54,349 nucleotides of DNA from assembly GCA_003265685.1 (NCBI GenBank), contig KZ836117.1, positions 3,989-58,337 on the forward strand, in the 5' to 3' direction. Shown here one piece after another: positions 16,708-41,439 of the stretch. The stretch is from Piscinibacter caeni. Its GTDB lineage: Bacteria; Pseudomonadota; Gammaproteobacteria; Burkholderiales; Burkholderiaceae_C. Each line of letters opens with the position of its first letter. Within the stretch, counting starts at the first letter, position 1. The position numbers and the translations under genes were made by a program. Under the pieces are notes generated by a model that saw only the letters and a list, made by a program, of their open reading frames with translations, was not told where the DNA came from and did not search any database.

Positions 16708-17601
16708 ATGAGCATCCTGATCAACAAGGACACCAAGGTCATCACCCAGGGCATCACGGGCAAGACCGGCCAGTTCCACACCAAGGGCTGCCAGGCCTAC
16801 GCGAACGGCAAGAACTGCTTCGTCGCCGGCGTCAACCCGAAGAAGGCGGGCGAGAGCTTCGAGGGCATCCCGATCCACGCCAGCGTGAAGGACGCCAAGG
16901 CCGCCACTGGTGCCACCGTCAGCGTGATCTACGTGCCGCCGGCCGGCGCCGCCGCGGCCATCTGGGAGGCCGTCGAGGCCGACCTCGACCTGGTGGTCTG
17001 CATCACCGAAGGCATTCCCATCAAAGACATGCTGATCGTGCGCAACAAGATGAAGGCCAAGGAGGCCGCCGGCGGCAAGAAGACGCTGCTGCTGGGCCCC
17101 AACTGCCCGGGCCTGATCACGCCCGACGAGATCAAGATCGGCATCATGCCGGGCCACATCCACAAGAAGGGCCGCATCGGCGTGGTGTCGCGCTCCGGCA
17201 CGCTGACCTACGAGGCGGTGGCGCAGCTGACCGAGATCGGCCTGGGCCAGTCCAGCGCGGTGGGCATCGGCGGCGACCCGATCAACGGCCTGAAGCACAT
17301 CGACGTGATGAAGGCCTTCAACGACGACCCGGACACCGACGCCGTGATCATGATCGGCGAGATCGGCGGCCCGGACGAGGCCGACGCCGCGCGCTGGTGC
17401 AAGGCCAACATGAAGAAGCCGATCGTCGGCTTCATCGCCGGCGTGACCGCGCCTCCGGGCAAGCGCATGGGCCACGCCGGCGCGCTGATCTCCGGCGGCG
17501 CCGACACCGCCGATGCCAAGCTCGCCATCATGGAGGAGTGCGGCTTCACGGTGACGCGCAATCCGTCCGAGATGGGCCGCCTGCTCAAGGGCCTGCTCTG
17601 A
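16708..17601 (+). CDS. sucD: Succinyl-CoA synthetase alpha subunit
   Basis: SucD (297 aa) binds CoA and carries the phosphohistidine intermediate, His256 in [13 protein letters not shown]. The N-terminal CoA-binding Rossmann fold ([16 protein letters not shown]) and the [13 protein letters not shown] motif are present. It forms the alpha2beta2 enzyme with SucC. The ATG at 16708 is the family start; the longer frame upstream is a sucC shadow. A 13-base perfect inverted repeat begins 10 bases after its stop. Confidence 0.98.
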
Positions 17602-17610
17602 GTCCGGCGG

Positions 17611-17640
17611 GGCCACGTTCGTAGTAGTACGAACGTGGCC
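17611..17640. promoter_or_regulatory. 13-base perfect inverted repeat between sucD and terC
   Basis: Arms 17611-17623 (GGCCACGTTCGTA) and 17628-17640 (its exact complement) surround a 4-base spacer. No T tract follows, so it is not a textbook intrinsic terminator. It ends 15 bases before a candidate -10 TAGAAT (17656-17661), covering the place where a -35 would be. It may be an operator for an unseen regulator or a U-less terminator for sucD. Confidence 0.6.
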
Positions 17641-17680
17641 GACGGCCGCGCTCCCTAGAATTCACGGCAGCTCGCGACAA

Positions 17681-17700
17681 GGAGGGCCCAGCGGCCCTCC
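17681..17700 (+). promoter_or_regulatory. Short hairpin in the leader of the first terC gene
   Basis: Perfect 8-base arms GGAGGGCC and GGCCCTCC with a CAGC loop, about 28 bases before the terC ATG. The leader lacks the conserved bases of the yybP-ykoY riboswitch that precedes the second terC gene. Confidence 0.4.
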
Positions 17701-17728
17701 GACCCCTTCCTACAACACGGGCCGTGCC

Positions 17729-18415
17729 ATGGATCTCTCTTCCGGCGCCTTCTGGGCCGCCCTCGGTTCGATCATCCTCGCCAACATCGTGCTGTCGGGA
17801 GACAACGCGGTGGTGATCGCGCTGGCAGCCCGTTCGCTGCCGCCGCAGCAGCAGAAGCAGGCCATCATCTGGGGCAGTGCGGCGGCGATCGTGATGCGCA
17901 TCGTGCTGACGCTGATCGCCGTGGAGATGCTCAAGTGGCCGTGGCTGAAGGTGATCGGCGCGCTGCTGCTGCTGTACATCGGCGTCTCGCTGCTGCTGGA
18001 GGACGAGGGTGGCGACGGCGAGCACCACGAGGCCGGCGGCATGCTCGCGGCGATCCGCACCATCCTCGTGGCCGACCTGGTGATGAGCCTGGACAACGTG
18101 CTCGCCGTGGCCGCCGCCGCCAAGGGCGACACGCCGCTGCTGGTGATCGGCCTGGCGATCAGCATCCCGCTGATCGTGTTCGGCAGCACGCTGCTGCTGA
18201 AGGTGATGCAGCGCTTCCCGATCATCATCACGCTCGGGGCCGCGTTGCTCGGCTTCCTGGCCGGCGAGATGATGTTCACCGACCCGGCGGTGACGGCCCG
18301 GTTCGGCGAACTGCCGCACGATGTCGTCAACGCGGCCGGTGCCGTGGGCGCGGTGCTGGTGGTCGCGGTCGGCCTGTGGCTGCAGAAGCGCGCCCGCGAA
18401 CGCGCCACGGCCTGA
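17729..18415 (+). CDS. TerC-family integral membrane protein (paralogue 1)
   Basis: A 228-residue protein with about seven membrane segments and both family motifs: ANIVLSGDNAVVIALAAR near the N-terminus and VMSLDNVLAVAAAAKGD in the middle. The acidic DN pairs lie within membrane segments and are thought to bind metal. TerC-family proteins are implicated in Mn2+ export or metalation of exported enzymes. A soluble acidic loop (EDEGGDGEHHEAGG) separates the halves. It is a tandem paralogue of the gene at 18724 but lacks the riboswitch. Start choice: the first ATG fitting the family; no clear Shine-Dalgarno. Confidence 0.88.
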   Translation: MDLSSGAFWAALGSIILANIVLSGDNAVVIALAARSLPPQQQKQAIIWGSAAAIVMRIVLTLIAVEMLKWPWLKVIGALLLLYIGVSLLLEDEGGDGEHHEAGGMLAAIRTILVADLVMSLDNVLAVAAAAKGDTPLLVIGLAISIPLIVFGSTLLLKVMQRFPIIITLGAALLGFLAGEMMFTDPAVTARFGELPHDVVNAAGAVGAVLVVAVGLWLQKRARERATA

Positions 18416-18439
18416 GCCGGCATTTCGGTTTCCACGCAC

Positions 18440-18469
18440 TTGCCCGGCGCGGAGCCGGGCCCCTATACT
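18440..18469 (+). promoter_or_regulatory. Promoter for the riboswitch-terC2 transcript
   Basis: A -35 TTGCCC (18440-18445) and a -10 TATACT (18464-18469) with 18-base spacing sit just upstream of the yybP-ykoY aptamer. The spacer contains a perfect GC-rich hairpin (18442-18448 with 18454-18460), which may also act as the end of the first terC transcript. Confidence 0.6.
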
Positions 18470-18477
18470 GCGCCGCA

Positions 18478-18610
18478 GAAGGGGAGTAGCTCGACTCCAC
18501 CGCGCGGGCCCGGTCCGAGGCGGCAGTTGCGACAGATCGTCAATACGAAGCGAAGCGACGCTTCCGGTCTGTCGGGCCATAACAAACACTCCAAGCCGAG
18601 CAAGACCTTC
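18478..18610 (+). promoter_or_regulatory. yybP-ykoY Mn2+ riboswitch upstream of terC2
   Basis: The conserved blocks of the yybP-ykoY aptamer appear in order: GAAGGGGAGTAGC at the 5' side (18478-18490), CGTCAATACG (18538-18547) in the middle, and GAGCAAGACCTTC at the 3' side (18598-18610). The P1 helix closes by GAAGG with CCTTC. This RNA class senses Mn2+ and typically controls TerC/Alx and MntP genes. AACACTCCA (18585-18593), inside the aptamer, is perfectly complementary to the terC2 ribosome-binding region TGGAGTGTT (18714-18722). An alternative stem 18607-18613 with 18635-18641 would compete with P1. Translational control is the likely mechanism. Confidence 0.92.
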
Positions 18611-18723
18611 GATGCAGGCCGCTGATGCGGCAGGATCGAAGCCGTCGACATCCGTCCCCGCGCCCGCGTTCCTGCCGCACCAGCCACCTGCACCGTTCGT
18701 CGTGCAACGTTGCTGGAGTGTTC

Positions 18724-19422
18724 ATGGAATTCCTTTCCCCCGCGTGGCTGTCGGCCCTGCTGGCGATCGTGCTGATCGACCTGGTGCTGGCCGGCGACAA
18801 CGCCATCGTCATCGCGCTGGCCGCGCGCAACCTGCCTGCCCACCTGCAGAAGCGCGCCATCGTCTGGGGCACGGTCGGGGCCATCGCCGTACGCTCGGCG
18901 ATGACGATCGGCGTGGTCTGGTTGCTGAAGATCCCCGGCCTGATGCTGGTCGGCGGGCTCGGCCTGGTGTGGATCGCCTACAGGCTGCTTGCCTCCAACC
19001 CGGCGGGCGAGGAAGGCGGCCACCACCCCACCGCCAACACCTTCTGGGGTGCGATGCGCACCATTGTCATCGCCGACGCGCTGATGGGCATCGACAACGT
19101 GCTGGGCGTGGCCGGCGCGGCCAAGGGCAGCATCGAGCTGGTGGTGCTGGGCCTGCTGATCAGCGTGCCGATCGTCGTCTGGGGCAGCACGCTGGTGCTC
19201 AAGCTGGTCGACCGCTTCCCGATCATCACCTACCTCGGCGCCGGTGTGCTGGCCTACACGGCCGCCCACATGATCGTCAGCGAACCGGTGCTCGACGCGG
19301 TGTTCGACCCGAGCCTGGCCAACCGCGTCGCCACCTACGTGCTGCTGGTCGCCGGCGTGCTCGCGGCCGGCTGGTGGGCCACGCGCCGCCGACCCGCCGA
19401 CGAGGCTGCCTCGCCGACCTGA
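18724..19422 (+). CDS. TerC-family integral membrane protein (paralogue 2, riboswitch-controlled)
   Basis: A 232-residue membrane protein with the same layout as paralogue 1: DLVLAGDNAIVIALAARNLP near the N-terminus and DALMGIDNVLGVAGAAKG mid-sequence, seven or so membrane segments, and a His-containing loop (EEGGHHPTANTF). The ATG at 18724 is supported by GGAG at 18715-18718; the open frame upstream runs through the leader and is not family-like. The Mn2+ riboswitch upstream points to a role in Mn2+ efflux or Mn2+-dependent metalation. It is separated from the next gene by 42 bases. Confidence 0.92.
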   Translation: MEFLSPAWLSALLAIVLIDLVLAGDNAIVIALAARNLPAHLQKRAIVWGTVGAIAVRSAMTIGVVWLLKIPGLMLVGGLGLVWIAYRLLASNPAGEEGGHHPTANTFWGAMRTIVIADALMGIDNVLGVAGAAKGSIELVVLGLLISVPIVVWGSTLVLKLVDRFPIITYLGAGVLAYTAAHMIVSEPVLDAVFDPSLANRVATYVLLVAGVLAAGWWATRRRPADEAASPT

Positions 19423-40192: not shown

Positions 40193-40261
40193 GCCGCGAA
40201 GATTACCGGATTCCCGTAGAACCCTTGGGGAAAATCGGTCGCTGCGATGATCCGCCCCGCT

Positions 40262-40390
40262 GAAGAGGGAGTAGCGAACGGTGCAAAGCCGTCGCGCCGC
40301 CCGTCAATCCGGATGCCGCCGTCTGGCGCGCATCCCGGGCCCGCAGTCCCGCGGGGCGCAGACCGCCCCGGGGCTCCCGCAAGACTCTTC
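40262..40390 (+). promoter_or_regulatory. yybP-ykoY Mn2+ riboswitch upstream of the Alx-like gene
   Basis: The conserved blocks are present in order: GAAGAGGGAGTAGC (40262-40275), CCGTCAATCCGG (40301-40312) and GCAAGACTCTTC at the 3' side (40379-40390). P1 closes by GAAGAG with CTCTTC. The 3' P1 strand GACTCTTC (40383-40390) can instead pair along all 8 bases (one G-U) with GAGGAGTC (40442-40449), which contains the ribosome-binding site. Mn2+ stabilising P1 would free the site, so a translational ON switch is predicted, as known for E. coli alx and mntP leaders. Confidence 0.92.
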
Positions 40391-40455
40391 GGCACCTGGC
40401 TGGCCGCGCCATGTGCGCGCGCCGTTCACGTGCATCGAAACGAGGAGTCCTTGGC

Positions 40456-41439
40456 ATGAGTTCCATTGCGCCCATGTGGCTGTGGGGTGTTTTCGTCGCG
40501 GCGGTTCTCGTCGCGCTGTTCGTCGACTTCGTCGTGCTGAAGAAGCAGGGCGCGCACGAGGTCACCGTACCCGAAGCGCTGAAGTGGTCGGTGATCTGGG
40601 TCGCGCTCAGCTTCGCCTTCAACGCGCTGTTCTGGTGGGCGCTCAAGACCCACGACGACCCGGCCGTCGCGGCCGAGGCCAACACGCGCGCCGTCGAGTT
40701 CCTGACCGGCTACCTGATCGAGAAGAGCCTCGCGGTCGACAACATCTTCGTCTTCCTGATGATCTTCACCTACTTCGCGGTGCCGCCGGCGTACCAGAAG
40801 CGGGTGCTGATGATCGGCATCGTCGGCGCGATCGTGCTGCGCACCGTGATGATCCTGCTGGGCAGCTGGCTGATCTCGAGCTTCCACTGGATCCTCTACG
40901 TGTTCGGCGCGTTCCTGCTGCTGACCGGTATCAAGATGTGGTGGGCCGCCGGCAAGGAGCAGAGCCTGGACGACAACCCGGCGCTCAAGCTGCTGCGCCG
41001 CGTGATGCCGGTGTCCAAGAACTTCGACGGCGAGAAGTTCTGGACCGTGGAGAACGGCAAGCGCATCGCCACGCCGCTGCTGATGGTGGTGGTGCTGGTG
41101 GGCATCACCGACGTGATCTTCGCGGTCGACTCGATCCCGGCGATCTTCGCGATCACCGACGACCCGTTCATCGTGCTGACGTCCAACGTGTTCGCGATCC
41201 TCGGCCTGCGCGCGATGTTCTTCCTGCTCGCGGCGATGGCCACCAAGTTCCACCTGCTGAGCTACGGCCTGGCGGTGATCCTGGTCTTCATCGGCACCAA
41301 GATGCTGCTGATCGACGTCTACAAGATCCCGGTGCTGGTGTCGCTCGGCGTGGTGATCGGCATCCTGGCGGTGACGATGATCTGGAGCGTGCGCACCGCG
41401 CCGCGCCTGCCGGAGGGCCGACAGGTGACGCAGAGCTAA
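40456..41439 (+). CDS. Alx-like TerC-family Mn2+ exporter
   Basis: A 327-residue membrane protein of the long TerC subgroup, similar in length and motif pattern to E. coli Alx (321 aa), a Mn2+ exporter. About nine membrane segments are visible, with EKSLAVDNIFVFLMIF and VFAVDSIPAIFAITDDPF-like motifs carrying the acidic residues thought to bind metal, then FAILGLRAMFFLL. The ATG at 40456 follows a GAGGAG at 40442-40447 after 8 bases and gives the family start MSSIAPMWLW. It is controlled by the riboswitch directly upstream. A Fur-like site begins at the last base of its stop codon. Confidence 0.93.
   Translation: MSSIAPMWLWGVFVAAVLVALFVDFVVLKKQGAHEVTVPEALKWSVIWVALSFAFNALFWWALKTHDDPAVAAEANTRAVEFLTGYLIEKSLAVDNIFVFLMIFTYFAVPPAYQKRVLMIGIVGAIVLRTVMILLGSWLISSFHWILYVFGAFLLLTGIKMWWAAGKEQSLDDNPALKLLRRVMPVSKNFDGEKFWTVENGKRIATPLLMVVVLVGITDVIFAVDSIPAIFAITDDPFIVLTSNVFAILGLRAMFFLLAAMATKFHLLSYGLAVILVFIGTKMLLIDVYKIPVLVSLGVVIGILAVTMIWSVRTAPRLPEGRQVTQS

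Follow-up and report, generated by a model that had tools for sequence, protein, structure and literature searches.

A probable yybP-ykoY manganese riboswitch that would switch on translation of terC2 in Piscinibacter caeni

The terC1-terC2 pair and its intergenic leader

The window, meaning the whole stretch of 54,349 nucleotides analysed here, is a section of contig C39 in a draft genome of 6.87 Mb and 310 contigs. It contains a tandem pair of TerC genes, terC1 and terC2, with a promoter between them:

17729-18415, plus strand: terC1, a TerC-family membrane protein of the YjbE subfamily (Pfam TerC 165.8 bits; NCBIfam TIGR03717)
18440-18469, plus strand: promoter, TTGCCC at 18440-18445, an 18-nt spacer and TATACT at 18464-18469
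18724-19422, plus strand: terC2, 232 aa, TerC family, YjbE subfamily (Pfam TerC 158.3 bits)

TerC2 also belongs to NCBIfam TIGR03717 (221.4 bits, cut-off 134.8), whose name, 'R_switched_YjbE', appears to be a record of riboswitch control and suggests that the association between gene and riboswitch is already known. As in the yybP-ykoY class, the leader precedes a Mn2+/metal-homeostasis gene, terC2 being of the TerC family. The promoter, recognized by an earlier sequence-only reading of this DNA, is indeed present and is the sole promoter-like match within 18380-18760; its TATACT box is retained, by eye, in the leaders L002-L007 and in a second copy, L153. RNA synthesis is expected to start near 18475-18477, and since the promoter lies between terC1 and terC2, terC2 should own a leader of about 248 nt that begins at the aptamer. 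The promoter spacer region also carries a GC-rich inverted repeat, GCCCGG at 18442-18447 and CCGGGC at 18455-18460 (18442-18460 overall), which could be a 3' hairpin of terC1 or an operator; several genus relatives show other inverted repeats at the equivalent position, by eye.

Related leaders were gathered from 96 inspected loci, namely 16 homologous ones and the best 80 of 582 from a TerC2 protein scan, with Rhizobacter, Azohydromonas and Ramlibacter among the sources of TerC2 relatives. The aptamer pattern was found before a TerC gene in 61 of these loci and was absent, by regular expression, from 35; removal of three duplicates left 58 leaders. Searching the DNA of 8 genomes from the genus and 399 from the family yielded 29 further loci (L147-L175), 16 of them new leaders and four more with the pattern but without a parsable TerC2 start, and after removal of the mis-cut L175 the set comprised 73 leaders altogether. 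For the aptamer alignment, 48 of 53 non-redundant aptamers were used: L036, L039, L059, L076 and L088, irregular or mis-cut, were taken out by eye, and L091 was retained despite a mis-cut 3' end. The near clade consists of 19 leaders picked by eye for alignability, L158 being left out as nearly identical to L157. In 18 of the 19 near-clade loci there is a TerC-like motif upstream, the exception, L155, being close to a contig end. The permutation tests reported below ignore the tree.

A complete aptamer and the models that detect it

Comparative analysis indicates that the terC2 leader (18475-18723) contains a complete yybP-ykoY aptamer, built as follows:

18478-18482, plus strand: 5' strand of the switch helix P1.1, GAAGG, partner CCUUC at 18606-18610
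18483-18488, plus strand: 5' part of L1, GGAGUA, within the block GGGGAGUAG (18481-18489), which is the same in all 48 leaders
18489-18492, plus strand: 5' strand of P1.2, GCUC, partner GAGC at 18598-18601
18531-18573, plus strand: P3 arm, with P3.1 (18531-18539/18565-18573) and P3.2 (18547-18551/18560-18564)
18540-18546, plus strand: L3, UCAAUAC, with A18542 at the position of the Mn2+-contacting adenosine
18575-18597, plus strand: P4, 18575-18577/18595-18597, with a 17-nt loop at 18578-18594
18606-18610, plus strand: 3' strand of P1.1, CCUUC, of which 18607-18610 are common to P5

The conserved yybP-ykoY blocks on which the class assignment had been based are all in place, GGGGAGUAG at 18481-18489, GUCAAUACG at 18539-18547, CCGG at 18564-18567 and GCAAGACC at 18600-18607, and support membership. 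RNAalifold, run on the 48 leaders without a given structure, returned P1.1-L1-P1.2-P3.1-L3-P3.2-P4 with double changes in 15 of 27 pairs; the P1.1-L1-P1.2 leg, the P3 leg with L3, and P4 come together in one junction in these leaders, P2 being variable. Across the 48 leaders, 95.4% of aptamer cells were paired against 87.3% in shuffled alignments, double-change cells numbered 132 against 26.6, and the covariation score was 0.346 against 0.181, with none of 500 shuffles reaching the real value in any of the three measures. The covariation signal was lost when the partners were slid against each other. The free fold of 18475-18753 has an energy of -128.1 kcal/mol (z -4.61; 0/200 shuffles).

The positions that define the metal site, GGGGAGUAG of L1 and the GUCA and CCGG elements of L3, including A18542, are invariant in all 48 leaders. 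When the L3 registers are compared, A18542 aligns with A41 of the L. lactis element UCA41AU43UC as given in the text of PMC6754395, and in L. lactis an adenosine of L3 is reported to contact Mn2+ (PMC6754395). We infer that the terC2 leader binds Mn2+. The same scaffold could be sensing another metal, or pH: the E. coli alx leader answers to alkaline pH as well as to Mn2+ (PMC9603457, PMC3874183), and alx is the best match outside the terC2 leaders for the covariance model described below. We nevertheless consider this improbable, given the invariance of L1 and L3, A18542 included, and the description of TerC relatives as Mn2+ exporters (PMC13274385).

The Rfam family model behaved differently. 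RF00080 gave no match in the whole window at its own cut-off, nor in 17401-19000 at E 10. In 100 relatives searched with stricter filters, the places of L003-L017 were absent, by eye, among the matches listed, and with permissive filters the homologous leaders of L005, L011, L013 and L015 were not matched either. RF00080 ('Manganese', Rfam release 15) spans 177 positions and, as its structure line reads, has no P1 helix. It scores E. coli mntP at 41.6 bits, below its cut-off of 45, and returns no match for E. coli alx; because it fails on both, we regard it as an unfair arbiter for the terC2 leader and rejected it in that role, since it excludes members reported to be Mn2+-responsive. The sequence-only reading had named a family-model score below threshold as a result that would refute it: the score is indeed below threshold, but it has no force as a refutation when E. 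coli alx and mntP fail too.

We then relied on R1, a covariance model made solely from the 48 terC2-type leaders. R1 detected E. coli alx over its full length (45.2 bits, E 4e-11), E. coli mntP (23.6 bits, E 9e-5) and 29 of 29 supplied loci that RF00080 had found (L116-L144, each E < 1e-3), which links the terC2 leaders by homology to experimentally shown class members. At E <= 0.001 and with strict filters, R1 had matches in 42 of 100 relatives. No aptamer ahead of terC1 was found by R1 in its search of the window. Its search of the genome listed two places, the terC2 leader and L177; absent from that listing were L001 and a second leader of the window, both of which a direct search detects. 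L001, a canonical leader of the same genome and class that precedes an apparent UPF0016/TMEM165-type gene (by eye), scores 34.4 bits with R1 and 103.7 bits with RF00080, in contrast to the terC2 leader, which RF00080 leaves undetected.

The suggestion that there is no riboswitch here, merely a GC-rich leader with chance hairpins, can point to the RF00080 result and to the GC-richness of the sequence. It is already contradicted by the aptamer covariation in 48 leaders and by the R1 matches, alx at E 4e-11 among them, and the fold z-score of -4.61 with 0/200 shuffles also stands against it; we give it next to no probability.

Several other leaders came to light. The second aptamer-like leader of the window (40260-40390, plus strand; R1 26.9 bits, E 1e-5; no RF00080 match) precedes the gene 40456-41436, an Alx-type TerC (TIGR03718, 404 bits); there P1.1 carries a compensated change (GAAGAG/CUCUUC), and the SD region, 40441-40452, is paired in the free fold with 40381-40391 on the 3' side of P1.1. 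L177 (G000:C29:29540-29653, minus strand; R1 41.6 bits) is a Mn2+-aptamer-like leader that precedes not a transporter but a small ORF with an apparent signal peptide and an EF-hand-like motif, DTNKDGLISPEE; such a motif was absent from the 11 parsed aptamer loci of the 16 other genome regions inspected. In L011 and L015, Mn2+-aptamer-like leaders (by motif) occur as divergent pairs, one before terC2 and one before an Alx-type TerC on the opposite strand, by eye.

Three downstream helices competing with the aptamer

Downstream of, and partly within, the aptamer lie the elements of a putative expression platform:

18585-18593, plus strand: anti-SD AACACUCCA, inside the P4 loop
18607-18641, plus strand: P5, an anti-P1 hairpin with a perfect 7-bp stem, CTTCGAT at 18607-18613 and ATCGAAG at 18635-18641
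18613-18635, plus strand: 5' strand of P7, conserved core 18613-18618
18670-18692, plus strand: 3' strand of P7, conserved core 18687-18692
18689-18706, plus strand: hairpin P6, UGCAC at 18689-18693 and GUGCA at 18702-18706, competing with P7
18714-18722, plus strand: UGGAGUGUU with the Shine-Dalgarno GGAG at 18715-18718, ahead of the ATG at 18724

The 9-base complementarity that first drew attention to this leader is exact and spans the ribosome-binding site: AACACTCCA at 18585-18593 is the Watson-Crick complement of TGGAGTGTT at 18714-18722. An exact run of at least nine against the RBS region arose in 25 of 3000 dinucleotide shuffles of 18476-18700, about 0.8%, so the match is unusual but not extreme. 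The anti-SD does lie within the aptamer, as had been proposed, in the P4 loop, but it overlaps none of the aptamer stems. Being in a 17-nt loop, it excludes the aptamer solely through continuation of the helix, and in the predicted fold the excluding part is the inward continuation of 18595-18611 with 18694-18713. The free fold of 18475-18753 contains one long OFF hairpin that consumes the 3' half of the aptamer, running from anti-SD:SD through the imperfect 18595-18611/18694-18713 helix to P7. As that reading had expected, the SD is sequestered in the fold predicted without ligand, where it pairs with the 24 nt preceding CAAGACC at P = 1.00.

Among relatives the arrangement is kept in part. 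The nine-pair match is peculiar to this genome: in the remaining 18 near-clade leaders there are 4-8 contiguous pairs, G-U included, with the exception of L156, which has a mismatch in the anti-SD core; the idea that relatives share all nine was rejected, contiguous outer pairs occurring in L002 (4) and L003 (2) only. The CUYC:GGAG core is nearly unvaried in the near clade, and RNAalifold, unprompted, gave four anti-SD:SD pairs together with P5 and P6 for these 19 leaders. On the flanks, contiguous pairs counted on both sides were equalled in 72 of 20000 permutations of the 19 sequences, the inner side alone in 229 and the outer side, which is not significant, in 3232; looser counts were weaker (both sides 246, inner 1570, outer 2260, each of 20000). 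Restricted to representatives, the both-sides figure was 92 (n = 15), 61 (n = 9) and 428 (n = 7) of 20000. These data suggest that the anti-SD flanks co-vary modestly among the near-clade leaders. In five of the 19 (L153, L161, L159, L008 and L037), the inner side of the core has no contiguous pairs.

Pairing of the SD with the P4 region, measured to the 24 nt before CAAGACC, was at least 0.5 in eight of the 58 leaders (L002-L006, L036, L043 and L097); of the 10 near-clade leaders among the 58, 6 reached this level. The value was 0.00 in L007, which belongs to the genus, and in L008, L037 and L039 of the near clade. Where this pairing is lacking, the SD tends to be occupied by other leader segments. 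An RNAduplex swap test of the same 24 nt against the RBS was set aside as evidence, as it weakened from 3 of 5000 permutations (58 leaders) to 236 of 5000 on 38 representatives. With those representatives, other segments performed about equally well: the 24 nt downstream gave 98, the P1 5' strand 170, the stretches 72-48 and 48-24 upstream 514 and 959, and the 24 nt cut into halves 1006 and 873, each of 5000.

P5 was correctly foreseen as an alternative stem: it is perfect and overlaps the P1.1 3' strand (18606-18610). Its columns are present in 18 of 19 near-clade leaders, L036 lacking P5, and in those 18 leaders six P5 pairs form in 100% of cells; its covariation within the clade is slight because it hardly varies there. 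Beyond the near clade, P1.1 and P5 change jointly, as in Cupriavidus leaders where CCUUU faces AAAGG on both sides, by eye. L036 has a long insertion in P4, no P5 3' strand, and P1 followed directly by P7 (by eye), and to judge from its sequence P5 looks dispensable there.

P7 shares the inner strand of P5, and the two are mutually exclusive. In the near clade, 147 of 171 P7 cells are paired against 136.0 +/- 2.1 with permuted partners (0/20000); with fewer sequences the counts were 11 of 20000 (n = 9, under 75% identity) and 59 of 20000 (n = 7). For the whole OFF structure in the near clade, double-change cells numbered 13 against 4.0 (0/500), while pairs with double changes (107/500) and pair types (79/500) were not unusual.

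The sequence-only reading had envisaged two mutually exclusive folds. We find instead three competing downstream helices, P5, P7 and anti-SD:SD, and the two-state reading, aptamer against anti-SD alone, was rejected because P5 and P7 are mutually exclusive and the near clade has both. Taken together, sequence and comparison show a complete covarying aptamer, a P5 that uses the 3' strand of P1.1, a covarying P7 that uses the inner strand of P5, and a match between the SD and the P4 loop whose core is retained in the near clade.

The aptamer could be real and Mn2+-responsive with an anti-SD that is incidental, control running through P5 and P7 in the manner of alx, through Rho or through RNA stability, and the 9-nt match reflecting chance and SD-likeness. 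CUCC pairs with any GGAG, runs of at least nine came up in 25/3000 shuffles, in 50 of 58 leaders the P4 region is not the main partner of the SD, P7 has better support than the anti-SD, and Rho also controls E. coli mntP (PMC11647493). However, the flanks of CUYC:GGAG co-vary (72/20000, and 61/20000 among nine diverged sequences), with AUG/CAU, ACG/CGU and AG/CU as examples adjoining the core, and the four core pairs were returned by RNAalifold unprompted. We hold an incidental anti-SD to be unlikely, while leaving it a minor share of the probability.

Predicted order of folding and probable direction of switching

Folding of growing 5' fragments of the window sequence placed P1.1 at ends 18610-18640, P5 at 18650-18680, P1.1 again at 18690-18700, and anti-SD capture from 18720. 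P1.1 returned after P5 in 16 of 19 near-clade and 25 of 54 other leaders. When the stretch between P5 and the RBS was shuffled (near clade n = 18, L036 excluded), the return was seen in 16 of 18 real leaders against 15% of 360 shuffles, the best of 20 replicates reaching 5 of 18; for the other leaders it was 25 of 54 against 10% of 216 shuffles. Anti-SD capture appeared in 12 of the 19 near-clade leaders and in 2 of the 54 others. Set against the shuffles, the near clade without L036 gave 11 of 18 compared with 22%, and the others 2 of 54 compared with 1%. It is from these growing-chain folds that P7 is predicted to undo P5.

Our best reading is a translational ON switch whose decision would be taken during transcription. 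In the absence of Mn2+, P5 would displace P1.1 as the RNA grows and would next be displaced by P7; the freed 3' strands of P4, P1.2 and P1.1 would be captured by 18694-18722, and the anti-SD would close on the SD (OFF). When Mn2+ is present, the docked aptamer would hold P1.1, P1.2 and P4 closed and keep the capture from extending, leaving the SD more open (ON).

The direction rests on several lines. Forcing P1.1 and P1.2 opened the SD in 15 of 19 near-clade leaders, its mean openness rising from 0.16 to 0.35; of the 54 other leaders, 27 responded in this way, with means of 0.31 before and 0.40 after. Mn2+ is reported to stabilise P1.1 in this class (PMC6754395, PMC11087558) and to activate translational reporters of mntP and alx (PMC9603457), and together with the forced-fold opening this makes ON with Mn2+ the likely direction for terC2. 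A Vibrio terC behind a predicted yybP-ykoY riboswitch is also described as Mn2+-induced (PMC13274385).

The forced aptamer fold of this sequence lies 18.8 kcal/mol (30 nt of coding sequence) or 14.9 kcal/mol (12 nt) above the free MFE, with a near-clade mean gap of 10.2 kcal/mol. A single ion is unlikely to make up such a difference at equilibrium. The model would therefore depend on kinetic control, the outcome probably being set during RNA synthesis and not at equilibrium. Even in the forced fold of this sequence, the SD is partly paired with 18680-18682 and with coding bases, 18715-18716 remaining 97% paired elsewhere. Little separates the fold combining P5 with the anti-SD (-108.0) from the aptamer fold (-109.3), and an alx-like OFF state with P5 is therefore also possible.

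In L. lactis yybP, P1.1 is likewise a switch helix overlapped by a competing downstream hairpin, there a transcriptional terminator (PMC11087558), which raises the possibility that P5 or P7 of the terC2 leader terminates transcription and that Mn2+ allows read-through. We rejected this reading as decidedly improbable: no terminator-like site was found on the plus strand of 18380-18760, T-runs are absent after P5 and after P7, and in the OFF fold the pairing includes the SD itself. Overall, we think it quite likely that terC2 translation is switched on by a yybP-ykoY Mn2+ riboswitch transcribed from its own promoter within the terC1-terC2 pair.

Among the closest known systems is the E. coli alx leader, the pH-responsive element PRE, of the same aptamer class (R1 45.2 bits). 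In alx, hairpin C forms in the inactive and the C/D pairing in the active form, the RBS is exposed in the active form only, and pausing exerts control (PMC3874183); that paper makes no mention of manganese. On our mapping of the sequences, P5 is the counterpart of hairpin C and P7 that of stem C/D. Two parts of an alx-type platform are found in the terC2 leader, a hairpin overlapping the P1.1 3' strand (P5) and a distal pairing that would undo it (P7; 0/20000 for the pairing, growing-chain folds for the undoing), and on this mapping the published alx leader would work, in outline, like that of terC2. The two differ in that the SD region of alx is predicted to pair partly with the aptamer 5' strand, on the L1/P1.2 side, and that of terC2 with the P4 loop. 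In the growing-chain fold of alx, P1.1 is followed by hairpin C and comes back only once, briefly and in part, with 2 of 4 pairs at 174 nt. E. coli mntP, of the same class (R1 23.6 bits) but of another gene family, has its RBS freed by Mn2+ (PMC11647493); the terC2 leader differs from L. lactis yybP in that no terminator was found.

More tentatively, the leader may be a two-checkpoint riboswitch, in which P1.1 is offered, removed by P5, offered again through P7 and lost to the anti-SD, so that Mn2+ would be tested twice; such a relay might be conserved in the TerC-type Mn2+ riboswitches of Burkholderiales and shared in outline with E. coli alx, a possibility we put forward as a conjecture with the balance against it.

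Already known are the class itself, its association with TerC and the concealment of the RBS. As far as titles and the beginnings of abstracts show, with partial coverage, what is new are the leaders missed by Rfam, the P4-loop anti-SD kept within a clade, and the covarying anti-P5 helix that would give an alx-like relay; no title dealt with a manganese riboswitch with such an anti-SD arrangement. In the papers cited, decisions during transcription were studied in alx and L. lactis yybP (PMC3874183, PMC11087558), and the nested P1/P5/P7/anti-SD design, with a covarying P7, offers many natural variants on which such decisions could be tested. A set of TerC leaders with Mn2+ aptamers escapes the Rfam release used, so their genes may look unregulated in database-driven annotation, and genomes annotated with RF00080 of release 15 may be short of members of this class.
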